Shown here: positions 2,981 to 22,562 of the stretch, in pieces
Layout: every line of letters starts with the position of its first letter
Numbering within the stretch: the stretch's first letter is position 1
From: a virus
DNA: 30,071 nucleotides
Direction: 5' to 3' (one strand)
IMG/VR virus record: IMGVR_UViG_3300025132_004644
Span: 1 to 30,071 of that record
Made by a program: the position numbers and the translations under genes
Notes under the pieces: model-generated
Database searches by the model: none
Told to the model about the DNA's origin: nothing
Seen by the model: only the letters and a program-made list of their open reading frames with translations

Positions 2981-3125
2981 TTGTTTTCTCCAAAGTGTTG
3001 TTGTAAATAACGACTCTGCCATTTTCATGAGTGAAAATAAGTTCATCATCATGTGCCCAACAGAGTTCTTCGTATAGGGCGTTCAATCTCTCCATGTCTT
3101 CATAGAGTTGGTTTGGGTTTGTCAT
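2955..3125 (-). CDS. Small hypothetical soluble protein (56 aa)
   Basis: The ATG shares a base with the TGA of the ferredoxin gene (TGATG), so it should be translated from the same message. The sequence is acidic and aromatic in its first half (NQLYEDMERLNALYEELCW) and has a strand-turn-strand segment (DELIFTHENGRVVIYN). No TM helix, signal or metal motif is seen. The last 26 nt overlap the minimal hli gene. Function unknown. Confidence 0.65.
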   Translation of the reverse strand: MTNPNQLYEDMERLNALYEELCWAHDDELIFTHENGRVVIYNNTLEKTNERKGRTH

Positions 3126-3421
3126 CAATACAAATACTCTTCTTGATCAGATAGGATTACACAATCACTTGTAGGGTAGGTGACGCAGAGAAGGCAGAGA
3201 CCTTCTTCTAGTTGATCGTCATCAAGGAATGATTGCTCTTCGTTGTCAATCGTTCCACTGATTACCTTACCAGCACATGAGGAACATGCTCCGGCTTTAC
3301 AAGAGTAAGGTAAGTCTAGTCCCGCTTCTTCTCCAGCTTCTAGAATGTATTGATCCTCTTCACAATTGAATGTGGTTTCGGTTCCATCAGGTTGCTGGAT
3401 GGTAATAGAGTAAGACGCCAT
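3125..3421 (-). CDS. petF: Plant-type [2Fe-2S] ferredoxin (phage petF)
   Basis: Ferredoxin accepts electrons from photosystem I and feeds reductases in the cytosol. The cluster ligands are C41, C46, C49 and C79 in the plant-type arrangement (CKAGACSSC ... C), and the protein is the usual length at 98 aa. It has its own sigma70-like promoter between the upstream hli gene and the ATG. Ferredoxins of marine cyanophages are known and can support bilin reductases or other reductases; no such partner is visible in this window. The RfbH-like dehydrase of the glycan operon is another enzyme class needing single-electron delivery, but a link is speculative. Confidence 0.95.
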
Positions 3422-3949: not shown

Positions 3950-4154
3950 CTACTGTGGGGGGATTAGGCCATCCTGGAGGGCACATAGGAGTAGTATAGG
4001 GATCCTTCATAACATAGTCAATGGTTTTTTGTGTAACCAACACTGGAGGTTGTGGACTTGGATCCCATACGGATGGCATGTCCAACCACACCTTACCTGT
4101 CTCTTCGTCTGGTGTGATACTCATCACACATAAATCGGGTACTTGATAGTCCAT
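3936..4154 (-). CDS. Proline-rich hypothetical protein (72 aa)
   Basis: This is a soluble, Pro/Asp-rich protein (MPSVWDPSPQPPVLV and MCPPGWPNPPTVDEDI) without TM or signal. The ATG sits directly after the T tract of a terminator, so no Shine-Dalgarno site is visible. An extended -10 element 30 bp upstream could start a short-leader transcript. The 3' end overlaps the next small TM gene. Function unknown. Confidence 0.6.
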   Translation of the reverse strand: MDYQVPDLCVMSITPDEETGKVWLDMPSVWDPSPQPPVLVTQKTIDYVMKDPYTTPMCPPGWPNPPTVDEDI

Positions 4155-4180
4155 AAAAAAAGAGGGCCACTAGGACCCTC
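4155..4180 (-). terminator. Rho-independent terminator after the beta-barrel-like gene
   Basis: On the minus strand GAGGGTC pairs with GGCCCTC (7 bp including one G-U, 5-nt loop), followed by seven T residues. It closes the upstream secreted-protein gene. The next ATG follows the T tract immediately. Confidence 0.8.
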
Positions 4181-4182
4181 AT

Positions 4183-4191
4183 ATTATAACA
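4183..4191 (-). promoter_or_regulatory. Possible extended -10 promoter
   Basis: TGTTATAAT on the minus strand is a perfect -10 with the TGn extension, but no good -35 lies 16-18 bp upstream. Its start site would fall inside the terminator stem, leaving the hairpin incomplete in the new transcript, which then reads the 72-aa proline-rich ORF. Confidence 0.4.
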
Positions 4192-4204
4192 CGTTATCCG
4201 TGAA

Positions 4205-4576
4205 TCAGAAACTGAACTTAACGCCCAGCTTACCACCTACGTTCAGGTCATCGAAGTCCTGGTCAGCAGTCAGCATGGAGAGTTCGCCATAAGCACCGAG
4301 TCTTTCGGTGATAGCAACGGAAGCACCAACCTTACCGGAGATTTCGGTTTCGGTCTCTTCGCCGTCAACAGATACCAGAGCAGGACCGCCTTGGACATAC
4401 CAAGCAGCGGACTCACCCAGGTCACCCTCGTAGCCGACATGCAGATCGGTTACAGCACCACTGTAGTCATCACCGACCCAACCAGCGTTGGTTTCGACGT
4501 TGACGTAGGGACCTGCAAGGGCAGCGCCTGCGGAAAGTGCGGAAGCAGACAGAGCTGCGAATACAGATTTGAACAT
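4205..4576 (-). CDS. Secreted beta-barrel-like (outer-membrane-type) protein (123 aa)
   Basis: A clear Sec signal peptide (about residues 1-21, ending AALAG) is followed by alternating beta strands: GPYVNVETNAGWVG, AVTDLHVGYEG, SAAWYVQGG, EISGKVGASVAI, GAYGELSML and NVGGKLGVKFSF. The C-terminus ends in Phe, as in many outer-membrane barrels. This suggests an 8-strand-type outer membrane protein for the periplasm or outer membrane of the infected cell. The gene is visibly GC-richer than its neighbours, with C-ending codons, which fits high expression or recent acquisition. GAGGT lies 9 nt before the ATG. It is followed by a terminator and so is probably monocistronic. Confidence 0.75.
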   Translation of the reverse strand: MFKSVFAALSASALSAGAALAGPYVNVETNAGWVGDDYSGAVTDLHVGYEGDLGESAAWYVQGGPALVSVDGEETETEISGKVGASVAITERLGAYGELSMLTADQDFDDLNVGGKLGVKFSF

Positions 4577-4692
4577 TAGTTTTTACCTCGTTTTTACTTG
4601 TGGAATGGTTACCCACAGATGGAAAGGGAATCGACAACTCCCTGTTTGTTACCCTTTGTAAAAATTGACAAAAGGTTAAGTATATATACCCG
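4577..4692. other. Intergenic region before the beta-barrel-like gene
   Basis: These 116 bp separate the end of the glycan operon from the secreted-protein gene. I see an imperfect inverted repeat (CCTTTTGT ... ACAAAGG on the minus strand), the repeated heptamer GGGTAAC and an AT-rich TATATATA run. No convincing -35/-10 pair or canonical terminator is present. A regulatory role is plausible but unproven. Confidence 0.4.
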
Positions 4693-5499
4693 TCAAGAAC
4701 TTGGCGGGGTATTTTGTTGATTCTCTGACGCACCTGATATCCTACCGAGGTAGGGATCAAAGTTCATCAATTCATCAATAGACATCTGGGCTCCAGCCTG
4801 TGACCAGAAGTTAAACTGAGCCTGATAGTTACTCTTGTGGAATACCTCCACATGGTCCTGGTGAATACTGGAACCCAGTTCTGTCTTGTATAACAAAAGG
4901 GGAATGGCGTAAGTGTTACCAGAGTTGTAGATGAGATCATCAGCAACTGGTCTGGGTCTTACATCATTATCAAGTTTGTACTTGTTACCTCTACAGTGGA
5001 GACGAATTAACTTCTCCGCATGATGTCGAGTAATCAAGTAACATGCAGTAGAGAATTCATTGACGAATCTCTTGTGGATTTTGACATGGACATCACCTGT
5101 ACAGATGATTGAGATCTGACAAACGTCCCAGTCATAAGGAATCTTACCATAGAAGTCCTTCCATGTAAAGTTCCAGAATCTGACTAGATCTAAATCACAG
5201 TCATCCTCCATCATGATCGCTACCGGATCACCACTCTCATAGAACTCCTTGATAGCCTTGAGGTGTGATGTCACACAACCAATCTCACCCGACTGACACA
5301 TGTCAGGATACCTACCCTTCAGAATGTCTCCTAGATCGTCTTCACGACCATCGTAAGCGGACACACGGGTATAGTTTTCAATCTCCCAGTACTTAAACTG
5401 GTTAGTCATATACTCCCAACGTTCTGGTTGATCATCAAGGTTGATGCAATAGATCTTGGGAAGACCTTGAAGTTTATAAGCACCTTTGTTTCTGTCCAT
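4693..5499 (-). CDS. Glycosyltransferase family 25-like protein (268 aa)
   Basis: This is the last gene of the glycan operon. It has the family 25 (LPS glycosyltransferase, LgtB/collagen galactosyltransferase type) blocks: IYCINLDDQPERW at 16-28, GEIGCVTSHLKAI at 71-83 and MMEDDCDLD at 96-104, where the acidic pair binds a metal-nucleotide sugar. Such enzymes usually transfer galactose to a surface oligosaccharide in the cytoplasm. The ATG shares a base with the preceding TGA (TGATG); a TTG one codon earlier is less likely. Donor and acceptor cannot be read from the sequence. Confidence 0.88.
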   Translation of the reverse strand: MDRNKGAYKLQGLPKIYCINLDDQPERWEYMTNQFKYWEIENYTRVSAYDGREDDLGDILKGRYPDMCQSGEIGCVTSHLKAIKEFYESGDPVAIMMEDDCDLDLVRFWNFTWKDFYGKIPYDWDVCQISIICTGDVHVKIHKRFVNEFSTACYLITRHHAEKLIRLHCRGNKYKLDNDVRPRPVADDLIYNSGNTYAIPLLLYKTELGSSIHQDHVEVFHKSNYQAQFNFWSQAGAQMSIDELMNFDPYLGRISGASENQQNTPPSS

Positions 5500-13992: not shown

Positions 13993-14697
13993 TTATTCGA
14001 TGGATATTCCAGGTGGTAGATGATAGTGGAATCCAAAGGGGATTAGACCATCATTCTCTGGGACTGGTGCTTCGTATGAAAAATGTTTTGCAATTTCAAT
14101 AGGAGCGATTTTACATCCATGTTCCTCATAGATGTGACGATTATGAACACAGATATTTCCATCCTCATGTGTATCGTAGAAGCCAAATGTTTTATAGAAC
14201 CCACTATCATCAGTGATAGGGAAGGGGATATCTACCTTACTAGGTAGTTCCATAAGTTTCTTTGACTTAAATGAGAACCCACCATTACCAACTCTAATGT
14301 GTTCTCCATAAGGTGAGATGTAACCCCTCTCTCGGATTGGCCAAGGGGCACCAATGTAATCGTATTCGTAGTATTCATCCATCCATGCACTAGGATTTAT
14401 AATGAATGCGTGACTCTGAATTGACAAACAGAATTCTGATTCGATATGTCTATGTTGTTCTTGAAGTAGAAACTTACCGTACCCTTCTCTTGTCGTGACA
14501 GGTACACAACTCTCTTCTACAATGATGCCGTCTTCCTTAAGTTCGTCAGAATATTTTTCAACAAACTCGGATGATGTTACCAGTTTTACCTGATGGAAGT
14601 TGGCAACATCCATACATGTATATAAGGCTCTGATAGTATCGTCAATAGTCTTTGTATTGTCGATAGCAAAACATGTGACCCTATTCAGATCAAGCAT
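13993..14697 (-). CDS. DUF5672-type putative glycosyltransferase (234 aa)
   Basis: The conserved blocks of the DUF5672 family are readable: LSIQSHAFIINP at 91-102, YDYIGAPWP at 112-120, VGNGGFSFKSKKLM at 136-149, and EDGNICVHNR and PFGFHYH further on. The family is found in sugar-biosynthesis clusters and is thought to be glycosyltransferase-like, with the Gly-rich block near the active site; I know of no firm activity. Starts inside the aminotransferase-fold gene's stop (8-nt overlap). Confidence 0.82.
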   Translation of the reverse strand: MLDLNRVTCFAIDNTKTIDDTIRALYTCMDVANFHQVKLVTSSEFVEKYSDELKEDGIIVEESCVPVTTREGYGKFLLQEQHRHIESEFCLSIQSHAFIINPSAWMDEYYEYDYIGAPWPIRERGYISPYGEHIRVGNGGFSFKSKKLMELPSKVDIPFPITDDSGFYKTFGFYDTHEDGNICVHNRHIYEEHGCKIAPIEIAKHFSYEAPVPENDGLIPFGFHYHLPPGISIE

Positions 14698-15985
14698 TCC
14701 TGAAATCCTCCACTACCTCTCCAATATATCCAATCATATCATCTGTAATGACAGGAGAACAACCCAAGAAGAACACATTGTTGAGAACCTTATTGGCTTC
14801 AGGATACTTCTTGGCATCGTCAAGATGAGAATATCCGGGATGAAGAAGAATATTACCAGCGAAATAGTTTCTTGTCTGAATCTTGTTTGCCTCAAGGTGT
14901 GCAACCAGAGCGTGTTTGGTTTTGGACTCTTCACACACAATCGGGACACCAAACCAACTGGTCTCACTGTCTGCACGTTCCCTAACAACTCTACAACCAG
15001 GGATGGTCTCGATGATATTCTGAATACTCTCCTTATTCTTTCTTCTCAATCTATGGATCTCATCAAACTTCAATAGTTGAACTGAACCAACCGCACCCTG
15101 CATGTCTAGTGGTTTGAGATTGTATCCCATCTGACCGAACACATACTTGTGATCTACGATGTCATCGTATCCTTCCAACCACTTATCAAAACGACGACCA
15201 CATACACCGTTAGTCAATAGGTTCTGTTGTCCTACACAATAACAACCACGACCCCACCATGCAAAACTACGTGCAAGATCCACGATAGCCTTGACATTAG
15301 ATGAGACCATACCACCTTCAATGGTACAGATATGGTGAGCAGGATAGAAGGAACAAGATGCAGCGATAGCATGTTTAGTCAGATAGTCACCCTTATACTT
15401 ACTACCGAGACTGTCACAGTTATCAGCAATAAGTTCTAGACCCTTTGCCTTACAGAACTTTACCAGTCTGTTCATATCATAAGCATTACCCAGAACAGGA
15501 GATGAGAACACAGCACGTGTCCTAGGTGTCACCTTAGAGAACACCTGATCCATATCCCAGTTCAGGTCTTGCCAGTTGATATCAACGAACACTGGTTTCA
15601 GACCAGCCTGGACTACAGGAGCAATCGTGGTAGCAAATCCACAGGAACAAACAATGATCTCATCACCGTCTTCCCAACCAAAGTATTTCTTCAGTGCAGC
15701 AATCATCACCAGATTTGCTGATGACCCAGAGTTCACCATGACCGAGTGATCAAACTCAAATCTCTTGGAGAACTCTTTCTCAAATTTATTTACTTTCTCA
15801 CCAGAGGATAACCACTTACCCTTCATGACACCGTAAATTAGTTCCTGTGCCTCTAGATCATCCCAGTAGGGACCAGAGTAGTAGACATTCTTACCAGGTT
15901 TCCAATCCTTGTTAGCCAAGAATGGAAACACATTGTCATCCATCTCTTTGGCGTCACTGATGAACTTCTCAATGAGTTGATACAT
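14690..15985 (-). CDS. RfbH/E1-like PLP-dependent sugar 3-dehydrase (431 aa)
   Basis: The protein belongs to the DegT/DnrJ fold, but the PLP lysine is replaced by His: SFYPAHHICTIEGG has H217/H218 where aminotransferases have Lys. This is the hallmark of 3-dehydrases (E1/RfbH, ColD). Four cysteines, C190-X57-C248-X1-C250-X11-C262, closely match the E1 [2Fe-2S] motif as I recall it (C-X57-C-X1-C-X7-C), with four extra residues in the last gap. E1 removes the C-3 hydroxyl of CDP-4-keto-6-deoxyglucose using electrons from reductase E3; I see no E3 gene here. The blocks GGMVSSN, WWGRGCYC and MGYNLKPLDMQGA are RfbH-like. Expected product: a 3,6-dideoxy sugar. Confidence 0.88.
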   Translation of the reverse strand: MYQLIEKFISDAKEMDDNVFPFLANKDWKPGKNVYYSGPYWDDLEAQELIYGVMKGKWLSSGEKVNKFEKEFSKRFEFDHSVMVNSGSSANLVMIAALKKYFGWEDGDEIIVCSCGFATTIAPVVQAGLKPVFVDINWQDLNWDMDQVFSKVTPRTRAVFSSPVLGNAYDMNRLVKFCKAKGLELIADNCDSLGSKYKGDYLTKHAIAASCSFYPAHHICTIEGGMVSSNVKAIVDLARSFAWWGRGCYCVGQQNLLTNGVCGRRFDKWLEGYDDIVDHKYVFGQMGYNLKPLDMQGAVGSVQLLKFDEIHRLRRKNKESIQNIIETIPGCRVVRERADSETSWFGVPIVCEESKTKHALVAHLEANKIQTRNYFAGNILLHPGYSHLDDAKKYPEANKVLNNVFFLGCSPVITDDMIGYIGEVVEDFRNA

Positions 15986-17979: not shown

Positions 17980-18693
17980 TCAACCTCTCAGTTTAAACAA
18001 TGCGTCACCACCCATGACATCAGGGTATGGCCAGTTCTGTGCAAGATCGTATCCAGGAAGAAGATCACTTACAGTTTGAAGGTTAGTGGCACCCACATAC
18101 ATCTCTTCCTCATGATACTCGGTATAAACATAATCAATCTTACCAATCATGTTCTTAGCACCAAGGAACACTTCTTTCTCTGCTCCCTGTACATCCATCC
18201 ACATGAAGTCGATGTGATCGATACCATTCTCCTCACAGAATGAATCAAGACTTCTGGTTTGAACCTCAATCTTCTCATCGTATTTGATAAATGGCCACCT
18301 ATTACCTCGGGGTCCACCATCAATAATCGTCTTTGGTTCATAGATTGAACCAGAGTATCTACCGAAGTCAACACCGCCATCAGGTGCATTGGTGTTACGG
18401 GAACGAGTAAAGGTAGTCTTACCATCCTGTGCAGCCATGGCAGCTGGTGTGAATGTATGACGACTATCAGTTCTCAATCCCTGATTAGATACACCCTTTA
18501 CATCCTTACCACCCTCTGCAGACATCGCTTTGATGTTAGTGGGGTCAGGATCAAACGTGTATAGTTTTAGATTGTCACCAAACTGACTCAGGAATTGTTT
18601 TGTATCAGTTCCGTCAGCACAACCAACTTCAAAGATAACGATCTGGTCACGATTACCTACCAGTTCTTTGATTCCTTCAATTGAGATTCCCAT
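17980..18693 (-). CDS. FkbM-family SAM-dependent methyltransferase (237 aa)
   Basis: Motif I is FEVGCADGTD (21-30), a second block LYTFDPDPTNI follows, and the C-terminal DFMWMDVQGAEKEVFLGA (162-179) is the FkbM signature. The family O-methylates sugars and polyketide oxygens. The ATG at 18693 is chosen because GGAG lies ~5 nt upstream and it overlaps the GME stop by 17 nt; the longer frame upstream is only the antisense-like extension inside GME. It is the second methyltransferase of the operon, suggesting a multiply methylated glycan. Confidence 0.88.
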   Translation of the reverse strand: MGISIEGIKELVGNRDQIVIFEVGCADGTDTKQFLSQFGDNLKLYTFDPDPTNIKAMSAEGGKDVKGVSNQGLRTDSRHTFTPAAMAAQDGKTTFTRSRNTNAPDGGVDFGRYSGSIYEPKTIIDGGPRGNRWPFIKYDEKIEVQTRSLDSFCEENGIDHIDFMWMDVQGAEKEVFLGAKNMIGKIDYVYTEYHEEEMYVGATNLQTVSDLLPGYDLAQNWPYPDVMGGDALFKLRG

Positions 18694-19753
18694 TTTTCTC
18701 CATTTCAATTTGTGTACAAATCCATTCGTATGTTTTACGGATACCCTCTTCAAGACTCTGAGAGTAATCCCAACCAAGGTTCTCACGAATGAGATCATTA
18801 TTAGAATTACGACCACGGACACCCGTAGGTGCGTCAAGTTTGTAAAGCTTCCTGACAACCTTACCTGATACCTTGGCTGCAGTCTCTACCAGTTGATTGA
18901 TAGTGACCATCTCCTCGGAACCGATATTAACCGGTCCCATAAAGTCGGAGTCCATTAGTCTTCTAGTCGCTTCAATGCATTCGTCAATGAACAGGAAGGA
19001 ACGAGTCTGTAAGCCGTCTCCCCACACCTCGATGCCTCCACCGACCTCCGGGAGTCTAGCGACTTTACGGCAGATTGCAGCTGGTGCCTTCTCTCTTCCA
19101 CCGTCCCAGGTTCCTTCGGGACCAAAGATGTTATGGTAACGAGCAACACGAACGGGAATACCGTGGTTACGATTGTAAGCAAAGTAGAGACGTTCTGAGA
19201 ATAGTTTTTCCCATCCGTACTCGGAGTCTGGAGCTGCGGGGTAAGCTGATTCTTCACGGCAATCAGGGTTGTCAGGATCTAGTTGGTTGTGTTCTGGATA
19301 CATACATGCCGAACCAGAGTAGAAGATCTTTGTCTTGTTCTCCTCTTTGGCATCGTTGAACTTACGTTGTTCTTCAAGGACATTTAGATTGATAGTGACA
19401 GAGTTACGCATGATGTCTGCGTCATTCTCACCAGTGAATACGAATCCTGCACCACCCATGTCAGCAGCAAACTGATAGATCTCATCAAACGTTTCGTGAT
19501 ACCTATCAGGGACACTAGCATAGAAGTTACCAGCATATCCCTTGAATCTAATCACACGACGAACGAATGTGGGATCAGTCAGATCACCCTGAATGAACTC
19601 ATTGGCAATTGTTTCAGAGAACTCAGGTCTCTTCAGGTCAACACCACGAACCCAGTATCCTTCTCTTCGTAGTCGTTTTACCATGTGACTACCAATGAAT
19701 CCACCCGCACCAAGAACTAGTGCGGTCTTATTATACTCAGTCATAACATCCAT
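18677..19753 (-). CDS. GDP-mannose 3,5-epimerase-like SDR (GME)
   Basis: The closest family I can see is plant-type GDP-D-mannose 3',5'-epimerase, which makes GDP-L-galactose and GDP-L-gulose. GAGGFIGSH binds NAD at 15-23. The catalytic residues known from Arabidopsis GME (C145, Y174, K178, K217) fall at C150, Y179, K183 and K222, all shifted by exactly +5. The flanking blocks agree: SGSACMYPE, EYGWEKL, GTWDGGREKAPAA, WGDGLQTRSFLFIDECIEA and GVRGRNS. At 358 aa it is close to full length. The start may be ATG 19753 or 19744. GDP-L-galactose would be a natural donor for the GT11-like enzymes of the operon. Confidence 0.92.
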   Translation of the reverse strand: MDVMTEYNKTALVLGAGGFIGSHMVKRLRREGYWVRGVDLKRPEFSETIANEFIQGDLTDPTFVRRVIRFKGYAGNFYASVPDRYHETFDEIYQFAADMGGAGFVFTGENDADIMRNSVTINLNVLEEQRKFNDAKEENKTKIFYSGSACMYPEHNQLDPDNPDCREESAYPAAPDSEYGWEKLFSERLYFAYNRNHGIPVRVARYHNIFGPEGTWDGGREKAPAAICRKVARLPEVGGGIEVWGDGLQTRSFLFIDECIEATRRLMDSDFMGPVNIGSEEMVTINQLVETAAKVSGKVVRKLYKLDAPTGVRGRNSNNDLIRENLGWDYSQSLEEGIRKTYEWICTQIEMEKNGNLN

Positions 19754-19781: not shown

Positions 19782-20603
19782 TCAATATACTTCACACATC
19801 ATATCAAGTCCTGTGTCAATGTCAAGTTTGGGAACGAAACCATAACTCTCCAGTTTATCAACGTTAATCGTCATGTTCTTAATCTGTAGATATTGTTGTT
19901 CATCAGGGAAGGGAACATCAATAATCTCACTTGTACTACCTACCTTATCCTTACAGTATTCAATAATTTCCCTGAAGGTACGACTTACACCTGAACCGAC
20001 ATTGTAGATTTGATTAGGGGAACTCCACACCATCAACGTATCAAGTGCTGTACACACATCATCAACATACATGTAATCCTTTAGATAATCACCACCACCA
20101 TACAATTTAATCGGTTCATTCTTCTTTAAAGAACGAATCATATAACCAAGAACATTTTTTCCAGGGGTCACAGTAGGGTCAATACCAAAGACATTCGCAA
20201 CTCTGAAGATACGATATTGAACACCAAAAGTTTTACAGTATGAGATGACCAAAGACTCAGCACATCTTTTAGTAATAGAGTAAAACCCTGTAGGATTACA
20301 GGGGTCATCTTCCTTGGCATCCAAGAAGTCATTACCATACACAAAACCAGAACTAACAAAGTTGAATACAGTATCTGTTCTCTTACAGTGTGACAATACC
20401 TCTGTCAGAATCTTAAGGTTAACATCAATATCAACCTGAAGATCTTTGAATACATTTTGATTGGTTGTAGTACTGATAAAGTACAGGATATCAGCCGAAT
20501 CAGGATGTCTTTGTCCTCTTGGAATTACAATATTGTCAGGATACATCCTACAATAGTGACTACCAATATAACCAGTGGCACCAAATACAGAAAGATTAAT
20601 CAT
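19782..20603 (-). CDS. NAD-dependent epimerase/reductase, extended SDR (273 aa)
   Basis: The sequence begins INLSVFGATGYIGSHYC with the Rossmann GxxGxxG, has NFVSSGFVYG as the catalytic-Ser strand and Y108-x3-K112 (YSITKR) as the catalytic pair. LYGGGDYLKDYMYVDDV resembles the C-terminal block of nucleotide-sugar epimerases. It immediately follows rmlC, the place usually held by rmlD, so a 4-ketoreductase role completing a dTDP-6-deoxy sugar is possible; however its motifs look more like GalE/epimerase than RmlD. ATG 20603 is preferred to a GTG three codons upstream. Confidence 0.8.
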   Translation of the reverse strand: MINLSVFGATGYIGSHYCRMYPDNIVIPRGQRHPDSADILYFISTTTNQNVFKDLQVDIDVNLKILTEVLSHCKRTDTVFNFVSSGFVYGNDFLDAKEDDPCNPTGFYSITKRCAESLVISYCKTFGVQYRIFRVANVFGIDPTVTPGKNVLGYMIRSLKKNEPIKLYGGGDYLKDYMYVDDVCTALDTLMVWSSPNQIYNVGSGVSRTFREIIEYCKDKVGSTSEIIDVPFPDEQQYLQIKNMTINVDKLESYGFVPKLDIDTGLDMMCEVY

Positions 20604-21132
20604 ATTTTTCACACTCTTTGAAAGTTTTAGCGTATTTGTCCTTGGCAGATAAGAACGGACTATCTATACCCCAGTCTATACCAAGGTCAGGATCATTCCA
20701 TAGAAGTGATCTATCATACTCCTTATAGTAAAATTCAGTTGTCTTGTATGATACGTGTGCATGTAAACTATACACATAGAATCCATGTGCAAACCCTTCT
20801 GGTACCCATAACATCACCTCAGGACGGTAGAGATGAACACTATAGTGTTGACCAAACGTGGGTGATGATTGTCTCAAGTCTACAATCACATCCAGAATTG
20901 AACCTTTAACACATCTAACCAGTTTACCTTGTGGTTTGACAACCTGATAGTGAAGTCCCCTTAGAACATGTGGAGATGACATCGAATGATTGTCTTGTAC
21001 AAATTCCATGTCCAGACCAACACTCGTAAAGTCTCTTTTATTGTAGGTTTCAATAAAGTGACCTCTATCATCTTCGTGTCTGTTCTGTTCAATCAAAACA
21101 GCATCTTTGAGTGGTGTCTTAATTATCTTCAT
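20596..21132 (-). CDS. rmlC: dTDP-4-dehydrorhamnose 3,5-epimerase
   Basis: RmlC converts dTDP-4-keto-6-deoxy-glucose to the rhamno configuration. The cupin blocks are clear: HEDDRGHFIETYNKRDF at 19-35, NHSMSSPHVLRGLHYQ up to 63 with catalytic H61, K70, GSILDVIVDLR, and VPEGFAHGF at 110-118, plus the EFYY tyrosines at 133-136. Length 178 aa is normal. It overlaps rmlB by 14 nt, so RmlB and RmlC are made together. RmlA and a clear RmlD are not in the window, so dTDP-glucose must come from the host or another locus. Confidence 0.96.
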   Translation of the reverse strand: MKIIKTPLKDAVLIEQNRHEDDRGHFIETYNKRDFTSVGLDMEFVQDNHSMSSPHVLRGLHYQVVKPQGKLVRCVKGSILDVIVDLRQSSPTFGQHYSVHLYRPEVMLWVPEGFAHGFYVYSLHAHVSYKTTEFYYKEYDRSLLWNDPDLGIDWGIDSPFLSAKDKYAKTFKECEKYD

Positions 21133-22042
21133 AATAGAGAATTGTTTTGAGAAGTCCAGTTGTAATGTCAGTGGAAACAGACCACTTTGTTTCGGTTGTT
21201 ATTTTTTTGTTTGAAGTGGAGTATCTAAGGTCATGTCCAGGTCTATCAGTGACATGTTCTATACGATGATCCTCCTTACTCATTAACTTACAAATCATCT
21301 TGACGAGATCAATGTTCTTAAGTTCACATTCTCCACCAATATTATATCTCTCTCCTACCTTACCGTTGATCCACAGTTCAATCAATGCGTCACAATGGTC
21401 TTCAACATAGATCCAATCCCTCACCTGTTGTCCATCCCCATAGACAGGGATAGGAGTTCCATTCTTGATATTCCTGATGATCGTAGGGATCATCTTCTCA
21501 TCATCCTGTCGTGGTCCATAGTTGTTTGAACAGTTTGTGATGGTGGTGGGAAGACCGTAGGTGACATTATATGCATTTACAAAATGATCACTGGCTGCTT
21601 TGGATGCAGAGTAAGGATTCCTAGGTTGATACCTAGACTCCTCATTGAATGATCCATCTTTGAAGTCAATAGATCCAAACACCTCATCAGTAGAGATGTG
21701 CATAAAACGATCTACCTCATGTTCCAATGATGCTTGTAGAAGATTAACCGTACCAATCACATTAGTATCAATGAATGGTTTGGGATTATTGATTGAATTA
21801 TCTACATGACTCTCTGCTGCAAGATGGAAAACAGTATCAAATGTTTCTTGTTCAAACAAATATCTAACTGCGTCATCACTGGCAATATCAATCTTATAGA
21901 ATTCAACATTGTCAGGTAGATTTGATTTCTTACCAGCATAAGAAATCTTATCAGCAACCACCAATCTCTCACCAAACTTACCCAGAGATCTGAGTAGTTG
22001 ACTACCAATAAACCCAGCTCCCCCTGTGACTAGAATGGACAT
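21119..22042 (-). CDS. rmlB: dTDP-glucose 4,6-dehydratase
   Basis: RmlB makes dTDP-4-keto-6-deoxy-glucose, the branch point to rhamnose and many deoxy sugars. The NAD motif is TGGAGFIGSQ (6-15), the active-site triad STDEVFGS contains T118, D119 and E120, and the Tyr/Lys pair is Y144-x3-K148 (YSASKAASDH). NNYGPRQ and YGDGQQVRDWIYVEDH are the usual RmlB blocks. At 307 aa it is somewhat shorter than the ~350 aa bacterial enzymes but keeps all catalytic residues. It overlaps the cytidylyltransferase gene by 13 nt. Confidence 0.95.
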   Translation of the reverse strand: MSILVTGGAGFIGSQLLRSLGKFGERLVVADKISYAGKKSNLPDNVEFYKIDIASDDAVRYLFEQETFDTVFHLAAESHVDNSINNPKPFIDTNVIGTVNLLQASLEHEVDRFMHISTDEVFGSIDFKDGSFNEESRYQPRNPYSASKAASDHFVNAYNVTYGLPTTITNCSNNYGPRQDDEKMIPTIIRNIKNGTPIPVYGDGQQVRDWIYVEDHCDALIELWINGKVGERYNIGGECELKNIDLVKMICKLMSKEDHRIEHVTDRPGHDLRYSTSNKKITTETKWSVSTDITTGLLKTILYYEDN

Positions 22043-22536
22043 GTTTCCTCGTATTTGTGTAGTAGTTCTGGTGAGTATTGAAGACCATCTTCATCTCCCA
22101 GAGTAATTTCTGTTCTCTTCAATTCTTCCAGACTATGAACTCTGTTCCTCAATTCTGTAGAGGAATACTTATGTTGTCTCTTGTGGTAGTGAATCTCAAT
22201 ATCATTGTCGATACAATATTGTTTACCAGTAAAGTCTCTGTCTTTATACTCCTCACTCAAGAAACGAATATCCATTCTCTGTGTCTTGATCATATTCAAC
22301 AGATCTTCCTCTGTCTCGTACACCAATATCTCATCTACGTATCTACATCCCTGCACCTGAACATACCTCTCATACACACTCTGTATGGGTTTGTTCTTGA
22401 TACCCGGTCTATCAATCGTAGGGTCCACTTGTAAGGCAACTATCAAATAGTCACACAAGTCTTTCTCCATCTTCAACATTGTCACATGTCCAGCATGAAA
22501 CAAATCAAAGGAACTACAATTAAATCCTATCTTCAT
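22030..22536 (-). CDS. Cytidylyltransferase-like nucleotidyltransferase (TagD/glycerol-3-P type)
   Basis: First gene of the glycan operon. The HxGH active site of the cytidylyltransferase superfamily is HAGH at 14-17 in SSFDLFHAGHVTML, followed by RYVQVQGCRYVDEI and YSSTELRNRV, the ISSTxIR-like substrate loop. Length (168 aa) fits glycerol-3-phosphate cytidylyltransferase or the related heptose-1-P enzymes. It would make CDP-glycerol or another NDP-sugar or alcohol. A CDP product would fit the RfbH-like dehydrase downstream, but that enzyme needs CDP-glucose, normally made by a different family. ATG preferred over the adjacent GTG. Confidence 0.85.
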   Translation of the reverse strand: MKIGFNCSSFDLFHAGHVTMLKMEKDLCDYLIVALQVDPTIDRPGIKNKPIQSVYERYVQVQGCRYVDEILVYETEEDLLNMIKTQRMDIRFLSEEYKDRDFTGKQYCIDNDIEIHYHKRQHKYSSTELRNRVHSLEELKRTEITLGDEDGLQYSPELLHKYEETCPF

Positions 22537-22562
22537 CACGAAAGATCTACCACATAGTATGT

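Follow-up and report, generated by a model that had tools for sequence, protein, structure and literature searches.

Background

Bacteria remove the C-3 oxygen from activated sugars in O-antigen and antibiotic pathways. E1 (AscC, DdhC or RfbH; CDP-6-deoxy-L-threo-D-glycero-4-hexulose 3-dehydrase; PDB 3bcx) carries a histidine in place of the PLP lysine, together with four cysteines for an Fe-S cluster. It works on a CDP sugar (PMC8987622), and the canonical pathway comprises RfbF, RfbG, RfbH and RfbI. SpnQ, the dTDP-4-keto-2,6-dideoxyglucose 3-dehydrase of spinosyn synthesis, is likewise an E1-type enzyme with an Fe-S cluster, and is served by ferredoxin and ferredoxin reductase or by flavodoxin and flavodoxin reductase (PMC8987622). 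ColD (GDP-4-keto-6-deoxymannose 3-dehydratase; 2gms) shares the fold and the active-site histidine, but has no Fe-S cysteines, uses a hydrolytic mechanism and acts on a GDP sugar. In viruses, rfbH, ascC and ddhC have been listed among the auxiliary genes of a marine virome survey (PMC10653327), and whether cyanophage LPS genes are functional or are 'stuffer' DNA was left open by Sullivan et al. 2010 (PMC3037559).

The window analysed here is the whole 30,071-nucleotide stretch of the IMG/VR virus record IMGVR_UViG_3300025132_004644. An earlier reading from the letters alone (the sequence-only reading) had proposed that it encodes an RfbH/E1-like dehydrase in a phage. The phage setting is supported: the window belongs to a T4-like cyanophage and its gene cluster is colinear with that of Synechococcus phage S-H68. 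Orthologues at ~87% identity are found in the Synechococcus phages S-H68, S-B43, S-B05, RB11-B and RN05-S, and the S-H68 gene is already annotated as CDP-4-dehydro-6-deoxy-D-glucose 3-dehydratase, that is, with a CDP substrate assumed. Phage genes of the RfbH/ascC type are already known; what is added here is the clade, its dTDP context and the absence of E3, and a search of the open-access literature found no paper on this clade, its nucleotide or the missing E3. Judging from the residues shared with E1, the enzyme most likely strips the C-3 oxygen from an activated sugar by means of a cofactor of the vitamin-B6 type together with an iron-sulfur cluster. The features discussed below are collected in Table 1.

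Table 1. Position of the dehydrase gene, its predicted functional residues and associated genes in the window
Feature	Position	Strand	Basis
E1/RfbH-type NDP-4-keto-6-deoxyhexose 3-dehydrase gene	14690..15985	minus	431 aa, ATG start
H217, stands in for PLP lysine (= E1 H220)	15335..15337	minus	3bb8 alignment; invariant 135/135
C190, first predicted [2Fe-2S] ligand (= E1 C193)	15416..15418	minus	E1 alignment
C248, second predicted [2Fe-2S] ligand (= E1 C251)	15242..15244	minus	E1 alignment
C250, third predicted [2Fe-2S] ligand (= E1 C253)	15236..15238	minus	E1 alignment
C262, fourth predicted [2Fe-2S] ligand (= E1 C261)	15200..15202	minus	loop 4 residues longer than that of E1
Plant-type [2Fe-2S] ferredoxin (PetF), candidate electron donor	3125..3421	minus	TIGR02008 139.5 bits, cut-off 81.15
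GDP-mannose 3,5-epimerase-like SDR	18677..19753	minus	2c59, E=5.8e-83
Short-chain dehydrogenase (SDR), proposed C-4 ketoreductase	19782..20612	minus	locus linkage to E1-type gene
dTDP-4-keto-6-deoxyhexose 3,5-epimerase (RmlC), possible C-5 epimerase giving an L-series product	20596..21132	minus	TIGR01221 225.4 bits, cut-off 155.75
dTDP-glucose 4,6-dehydratase (RmlB), proposed supplier of 4-keto-6-deoxy substrate	21119..22042	minus	TIGR01181 389.4 bits, cut-off 365.1
Cytidylyltransferase-like (TagD/RfaE-II), head of cluster	22030..22539	minus	PF01467; TIGR01518 47.1 and TIGR02199 59.6 bits, both below cut-off

E1-type residues and predicted structure

The opposite (plus) strand of the E1-type gene is interrupted by stops. 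Residues 23-428 of the protein align with E1 from Yersinia (3bcx), its best solved relative (phmmer, E=1.9e-62), at an identity of only about 30%. The histidine of interest was placed with the help of 3bb8, a structure of the H220K mutant of E1. Its engineered lysine falls opposite the first of two adjacent phage histidines, and H218 pairs with E1 H221; H217, and not H218, is therefore the equivalent of E1 H220. All E1 active-site positions looked at (D194, Y217, H220 and F345) are matched in the phage protein, as are the four cysteines, numbered C193, C251, C253 and C261 from the aligned 3bcx chain. This numbering bears out the E1 motif that the sequence-only reading had given, C-X57-C-X1-C-X7-C, and the six phage residues that it had named (C190, H217, H218, C248, C250 and C262) each lie exactly at the position claimed. 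The phage spacing, C-X57-C-X1-C-X11-C, differs from that of E1 only in the last loop.

An AlphaFold2 model built from a diverse alignment has a mean pLDDT of 94.2, a pTM of 0.92 and no residue below 50, with the cysteine loop as its least certain part (block means 84, 63 and 79). In a model built from 50 close relatives the pLDDT of this loop is below 50 because the alignment is too shallow, a defect that the diverse alignment cured. Foldseek ranks E1 3bcx first among solved structures (TM 0.86/0.88), followed by ColD and then by sugar aminotransferases. The comparison with E1/RfbH and ColD that the sequence-only reading had proposed as a check thus finds E1 closest in both sequence and fold, ColD being less similar (E=1.9e-47).

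Two IMG/VR scans for relatives gave 203 and at least 590 matching stretches. Among 135 aligned sequences, C190, D191, Y214, H217, H218, C248, C250, C262, W344 and F345 are invariant in every one, and the X57/X11 cysteine spacing is kept in 134 of 134 relatives; such invariance means that the pattern in the phage protein is not due to chance. A separate IMG/VR scan with a canonical cyanobacterial RfbH as query found 404 viral stretches. In these more distant RfbH-type proteins the four cysteines are nearly always present and the last loop is 7, 11, 12 or 13 residues long. Loop length varies within the family, so the longer loop is no argument against a cluster. The genes of this wider set (loci L208-L287) are spread between the two clades described below; some of them match the window protein and E1 about equally well and may connect these clades.

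The DegT/StrS fold is also that of nucleotide-sugar aminotransferases, some phage records label the gene as an aminotransferase family protein, and SpnQ transaminates when no reductase is supplied (PMC8987622). The phage enzyme might thus be an aminotransferase, or an SpnQ-like enzyme that mainly transaminates in vivo. However, the lysine of DegT/StrS aminotransferases is replaced by histidine in all 135 sequences, and a transaminase would have no obvious need of the conserved cysteines, which makes this reading very improbable. At the level of sequence, the proposal of an E1-type C-3 dehydrase with predicted PMP and a predicted [2Fe-2S] cluster, neither a transaminase nor a ColD, holds on the strength of the complete E1 active-site and cysteine signature.

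Selection on the gene is strong and purifying, as indicated by dN/dS values of 0.04-0.08 against 12 relatives with usable dS (five others are saturated at synonymous sites). Cyanophage LPS clusters are sporadic and of unknown function, and functionless packaging DNA has been raised as one explanation for them (PMC3037559). With such dN/dS values and invariant catalytic residues, this explanation is strongly disfavoured for the present gene and hardly credible.

A virus-dominated clade with host copies

In a tree of 68 proteins, a set that does not include SpnQ itself, the viral sequences fall together with four picocyanobacterial ones in a single clade (support 100) on a long stem (2.13). Its sister clade (support 99), whose members have the short loop, contains Yersinia E1 and proteins from Salmonella, Azospirillum and Streptomyces as well as canonical cyanobacterial RfbH. 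By this phylogeny the phage protein is a member of a well-supported, virus-dominated branch that is sister to canonical RfbH. Streptomyces RfbH-like genes, which group with canonical RfbH (X7) and lie in antibiotic-type clusters, differ from the phage gene in both respects. Compared with E1, the phage protein is set apart by its low identity, its X11 loop, its separate clade and its dTDP-type context.

The phage protein scores 345.6 bits to NF011936, the RfbH equivalog model, and a host copy of the viral-type gene (genome G001) scores 347.7 bits. The curated cut-off is 423, so the phage protein is not called an RfbH equivalog, which fits a separate subfamily. Though it is no RfbH equivalog, its shared residues indicate that it should work like E1. 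Divergent cyanobacterial matches to NF011936 (210-311 bits; L173-L181) were considered as a host source and rejected, since they do not have the set of three cysteines and fall outside the E1 clade; several are on long branches, and their own positions in the tree are unsure.

The picocyanobacterial copies are nested at three places inside the viral diversity. Three separate positions suggest repeated gene exchange between viruses and picocyanobacteria, which may have run in either direction. The viral-type gene was found in 4 of 400 genomes of the picocyanobacterial family, and at least two of the copies sit on host contigs. A copy in Prochlorococcus AG-347-J21 is flanked by genes that we take to be ftsH-, argF- and lexA-like, and the flanks of a second host copy (L201) are apparently apt/mtn-like, from gene names read from sequence.

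Which nucleotide carries the sugar

The sequence-only reading expected CDP-linked substrates. We surveyed 40 records that carry the gene, 39 of them viral and one from a host. As most of the viral records are fragmentary, any single absence carries little weight, although the records of S-B43 and LR756502 are long. None of the 40 contains a CDP-glucose 4,6-dehydratase over the cut-off, and none a glucose-1-phosphate cytidylyltransferase (RfbF) over the cut-off. A dTDP-glucose 4,6-dehydratase is over the cut-off in 26, of which 25 are viral; LR756502, the most distant member, has no RmlB at the threshold used. The RmlB of the window matches the solved structure 1bxk (E=1.7e-83) and fails the CDP model TIGR02622 (79.6 bits against a cut-off of 278.45). 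As a control, CDP-glucose 4,6-dehydratase was detected in 17 of 20 cyanobacterial genomes with canonical RfbH, several times adjoining RfbH. In the four hosts with the viral-type gene, some of whose genomes are small and possibly incomplete, the dTDP enzyme is always present and the CDP enzyme is missing from three.

A second conserved partner is the SDR. Of 138 loci, 89 have a homologue of it immediately upstream of the E1-type gene and a further 35 have one elsewhere; 18 loci show the order RmlB-SDR-E1, head to tail. Within the phage collection the SDR occurs in only six records, five of them closely related to one another, and all six hold the E1-type gene at 66% identity or more. In the window itself the SDR is ~3.8 kb from the E1-type gene. 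A homologue of RmlC is present in 42 of the 138 loci. The RmlB-RmlC-SDR set of the window could equally be a rhamnose-type set for another sugar. Taken together, the frequent RmlB, the absent CDP enzymes and the linked SDR favour dTDP-4-keto-6-deoxyglucose, which, to go by these conserved partners, is most likely the substrate. There is precedent for dTDP-linked relatives in the characterised SpnQ and in a Streptomyces RfbH relative that adjoins RmlB and a 2,3-dehydratase gene. The phage enzyme is proposed to resemble SpnQ in being E1-type, in having an Fe-S cluster and in using a dTDP substrate.

The alternative closest to the original expectation is E1-type chemistry on a CDP-linked substrate made wholly by host RfbF and RfbG. 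E1 itself works on a CDP sugar, and canonical RfbH is over the cut-off in 78 of 386 cyanobacterial genomes. Such genomes usually have the CDP enzyme as well, so that these hosts could provide the substrate. Among the hosts with the viral-type gene, one (G475) does contain the CDP enzyme, on a different contig. On the other side, no viral carrier has a CDP enzyme over the cut-off (CDP dehydratase or RfbF in 0 of 39, against RmlB in 25 of 39), RmlB is at times in the same operon as the E1-type gene, and three of the four hosts do not have the CDP enzyme. CDP-linked substrates are therefore unlikely. The cytidylyltransferase of the window was also considered as a source of CDP-glucose and rejected, as it belongs to the TagD/RfaE-II superfamily and is not RfbF.

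A GDP-linked, ColD-like dehydratase that makes a colitose-type sugar and leaves the cluster unused would accord with the closeness of the ColD fold to the phage protein, and with the presence of a GT11 and of the GDP-mannose 3,5-epimerase-like gene in the cluster. Moreover, phage S-CAM7 has a ColD-like gene adjoining Gmd and Fcl. Against this, ColD-like proteins do not have the set of four invariant cysteines, the phage gene groups with RfbH in the tree, away from viral ColD-like genes, and GDP-mannose 4,6-dehydratase (gmd) was found in only 3 of the 40 carrier records. We regard a GDP-linked enzyme as scarcely probable, and dTDP-4-keto-6-deoxyglucose stays the preferred substrate.

Several additional DegT-fold genes were observed in phages. 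Those of the jumbo phage LR756502 (L083:7431-8600) and of S-CAM7 (L206:2953-4086) are ColD-like and have no Fe-S cysteines, and ColD-like DegT-fold relatives in phages and cyanobacteria do not contain the C248/C250/C262 set. A weaker relative is found at L092:7105-8268. LR756502 carries both a ColD-like and an E1-type gene within 8 kb. In S-B43 (MN018232.1), RmlB and the SDR (56254-58505) are ~35 kb from the E1-type gene (93845-95140) and on the opposite strand, unlike in S-H68, where all three genes are in one cluster; the arrangement in S-B43 reflects an inversion or an assembly error.

Proposed electron supply without E3

The sequence-only reading noted that E3/RfbI is not in the window, an observation that extends to all carriers tested. 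A Salmonella sequence (NZ_CP022016.1, locus L205) has an E3/RfbI-like frame at 4031-5065, between rfbC and rfbF, for which the PLSDB table has no feature. As a probe for E3 we used its reading frame 4067-5065. The probe finds itself, and at E<=1e-10 it finds E3 in none of 34 carriers, namely ten viral records and 24 cyanobacterial genomes, 20 with canonical RfbH and four with the viral-type gene. No E3 was found in an IMG/VR scan, which reaches close relatives only, and no ferredoxin-reductase NAD-binding domain is over the cut-off in the 39 viral records. Unlike in the canonical RfbF-RfbG-RfbH-RfbI pathway, no E3, RfbF or RfbG partner was found for the phage protein in the records tested. E3 is absent also from the 20 cyanobacterial genomes with canonical RfbH, so cyanobacterial E1-type enzymes in general seem to manage without it.

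Ferredoxin is a plausible electron donor by analogy with SpnQ, and a ferredoxin gene is present in the window as well as in all five isolate phages that carry the E1-type gene. Ferredoxin genes were also found in 283 phage records, of which nearly all lack the E1-type gene. With so wide a distribution in cyanophages, their presence is compatible with a donor role but is not specific. A petF gene is expected in every cyanobacterium, and its apparent absence from some picocyanobacterial genomes in a Fer2 family search was set aside as a probable false negative.

Proposed pathway and biological role

In the proposed mechanism, PMP would form a Schiff base in the active site with the C-4 ketone of an NDP-4-keto-6-deoxyhexose. 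H217 would then take a proton from PMP and the C-3 hydroxyl would depart. The resulting 3,4-hexoseen intermediate would receive two single electrons through a [2Fe-2S] cluster held by C190, C248, C250 and C262, to yield a 4-keto-3,6-dideoxy sugar. The substrate, dTDP-4-keto-6-deoxyglucose, would be made by phage RmlB from dTDP-glucose of the host. Electrons might be supplied by reduced ferredoxin, either that of the host or phage PetF, or by a host ferredoxin/FNR pair, instead of by the E3 reductase. The linked SDR would reduce C-4, RmlC may invert C-5, and glycosyltransferases of the cluster would put the 3,6-dideoxysugar onto a surface glycan. We consider it reasonably probable that this reading is correct as a whole, from the E1/SpnQ-type 3-dehydrase with a dTDP substrate and ferredoxin electrons to C-4 reduction by the SDR and a surface-glycan sugar.

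The E1-type gene lies within a block of glycosyltransferase genes (GT2, GT11, GT17, GT25 and GT92) and sugar-nucleotide genes. Homologues of the GDP-mannose 3,5-epimerase-like gene immediately follow the E1-type gene in 26 loci, and the product in the window is a possible source of GDP-L-galactose. Positions 13993-14697 of the window encode a DUF5672 protein, and in 62 of 138 loci a homologue comes right after the E1-type gene; the protein is possibly the glycosyltransferase for the product of the E1-type enzyme. We infer that the simplest role of the enzyme lies in making a 3,6-dideoxysugar that goes into a surface glycan, and both alteration of host LPS during infection and decoration of the virion are possible. 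A 3,6-dideoxyhexose has been reported from the LPS of Anabaena cylindrica (PMC4515613).

At two other loci (L200 in genome G605 and L194 in Desulfobaculum), E1/RfbH-type genes adjoin a transketolase/pyruvate-dehydrogenase-like gene pair, as would be expected for TPP-dependent synthesis of a branched-chain sugar on a 3-deoxy intermediate.

Implications

The virus-dominated branch seems to use dTDP rather than CDP and to work without the textbook reductase. If the nucleotide switch is true, it would correct the GenBank annotation CDP-4-dehydro-6-deoxyglucose 3-dehydratase. The enzyme is also a candidate case of an Fe-S sugar enzyme that operates in a photosynthetic cell on electrons from ferredoxin, with no E3.

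A broader scenario can be offered only tentatively, and we would not yet bet on it. An E1-type subfamily dominated by viruses may have shifted from CDP- to dTDP-sugars and from E3 to photosynthetic ferredoxin. In that case, infecting cyanophages would draw on light-derived electrons to make 3,6-dideoxysugars for a surface glycan. The gene may then have passed several times between phages and the surface-polysaccharide islands of Prochlorococcus and Synechococcus.

As read from the conserved signature, C-3 deoxygenation would be strongly conserved across a large group of marine viruses, at least 590 related stretches having been found in a single IMG/VR scan. If true, this would settle the question of function versus stuffer (PMC3037559) for one gene of a cyanophage LPS cluster.
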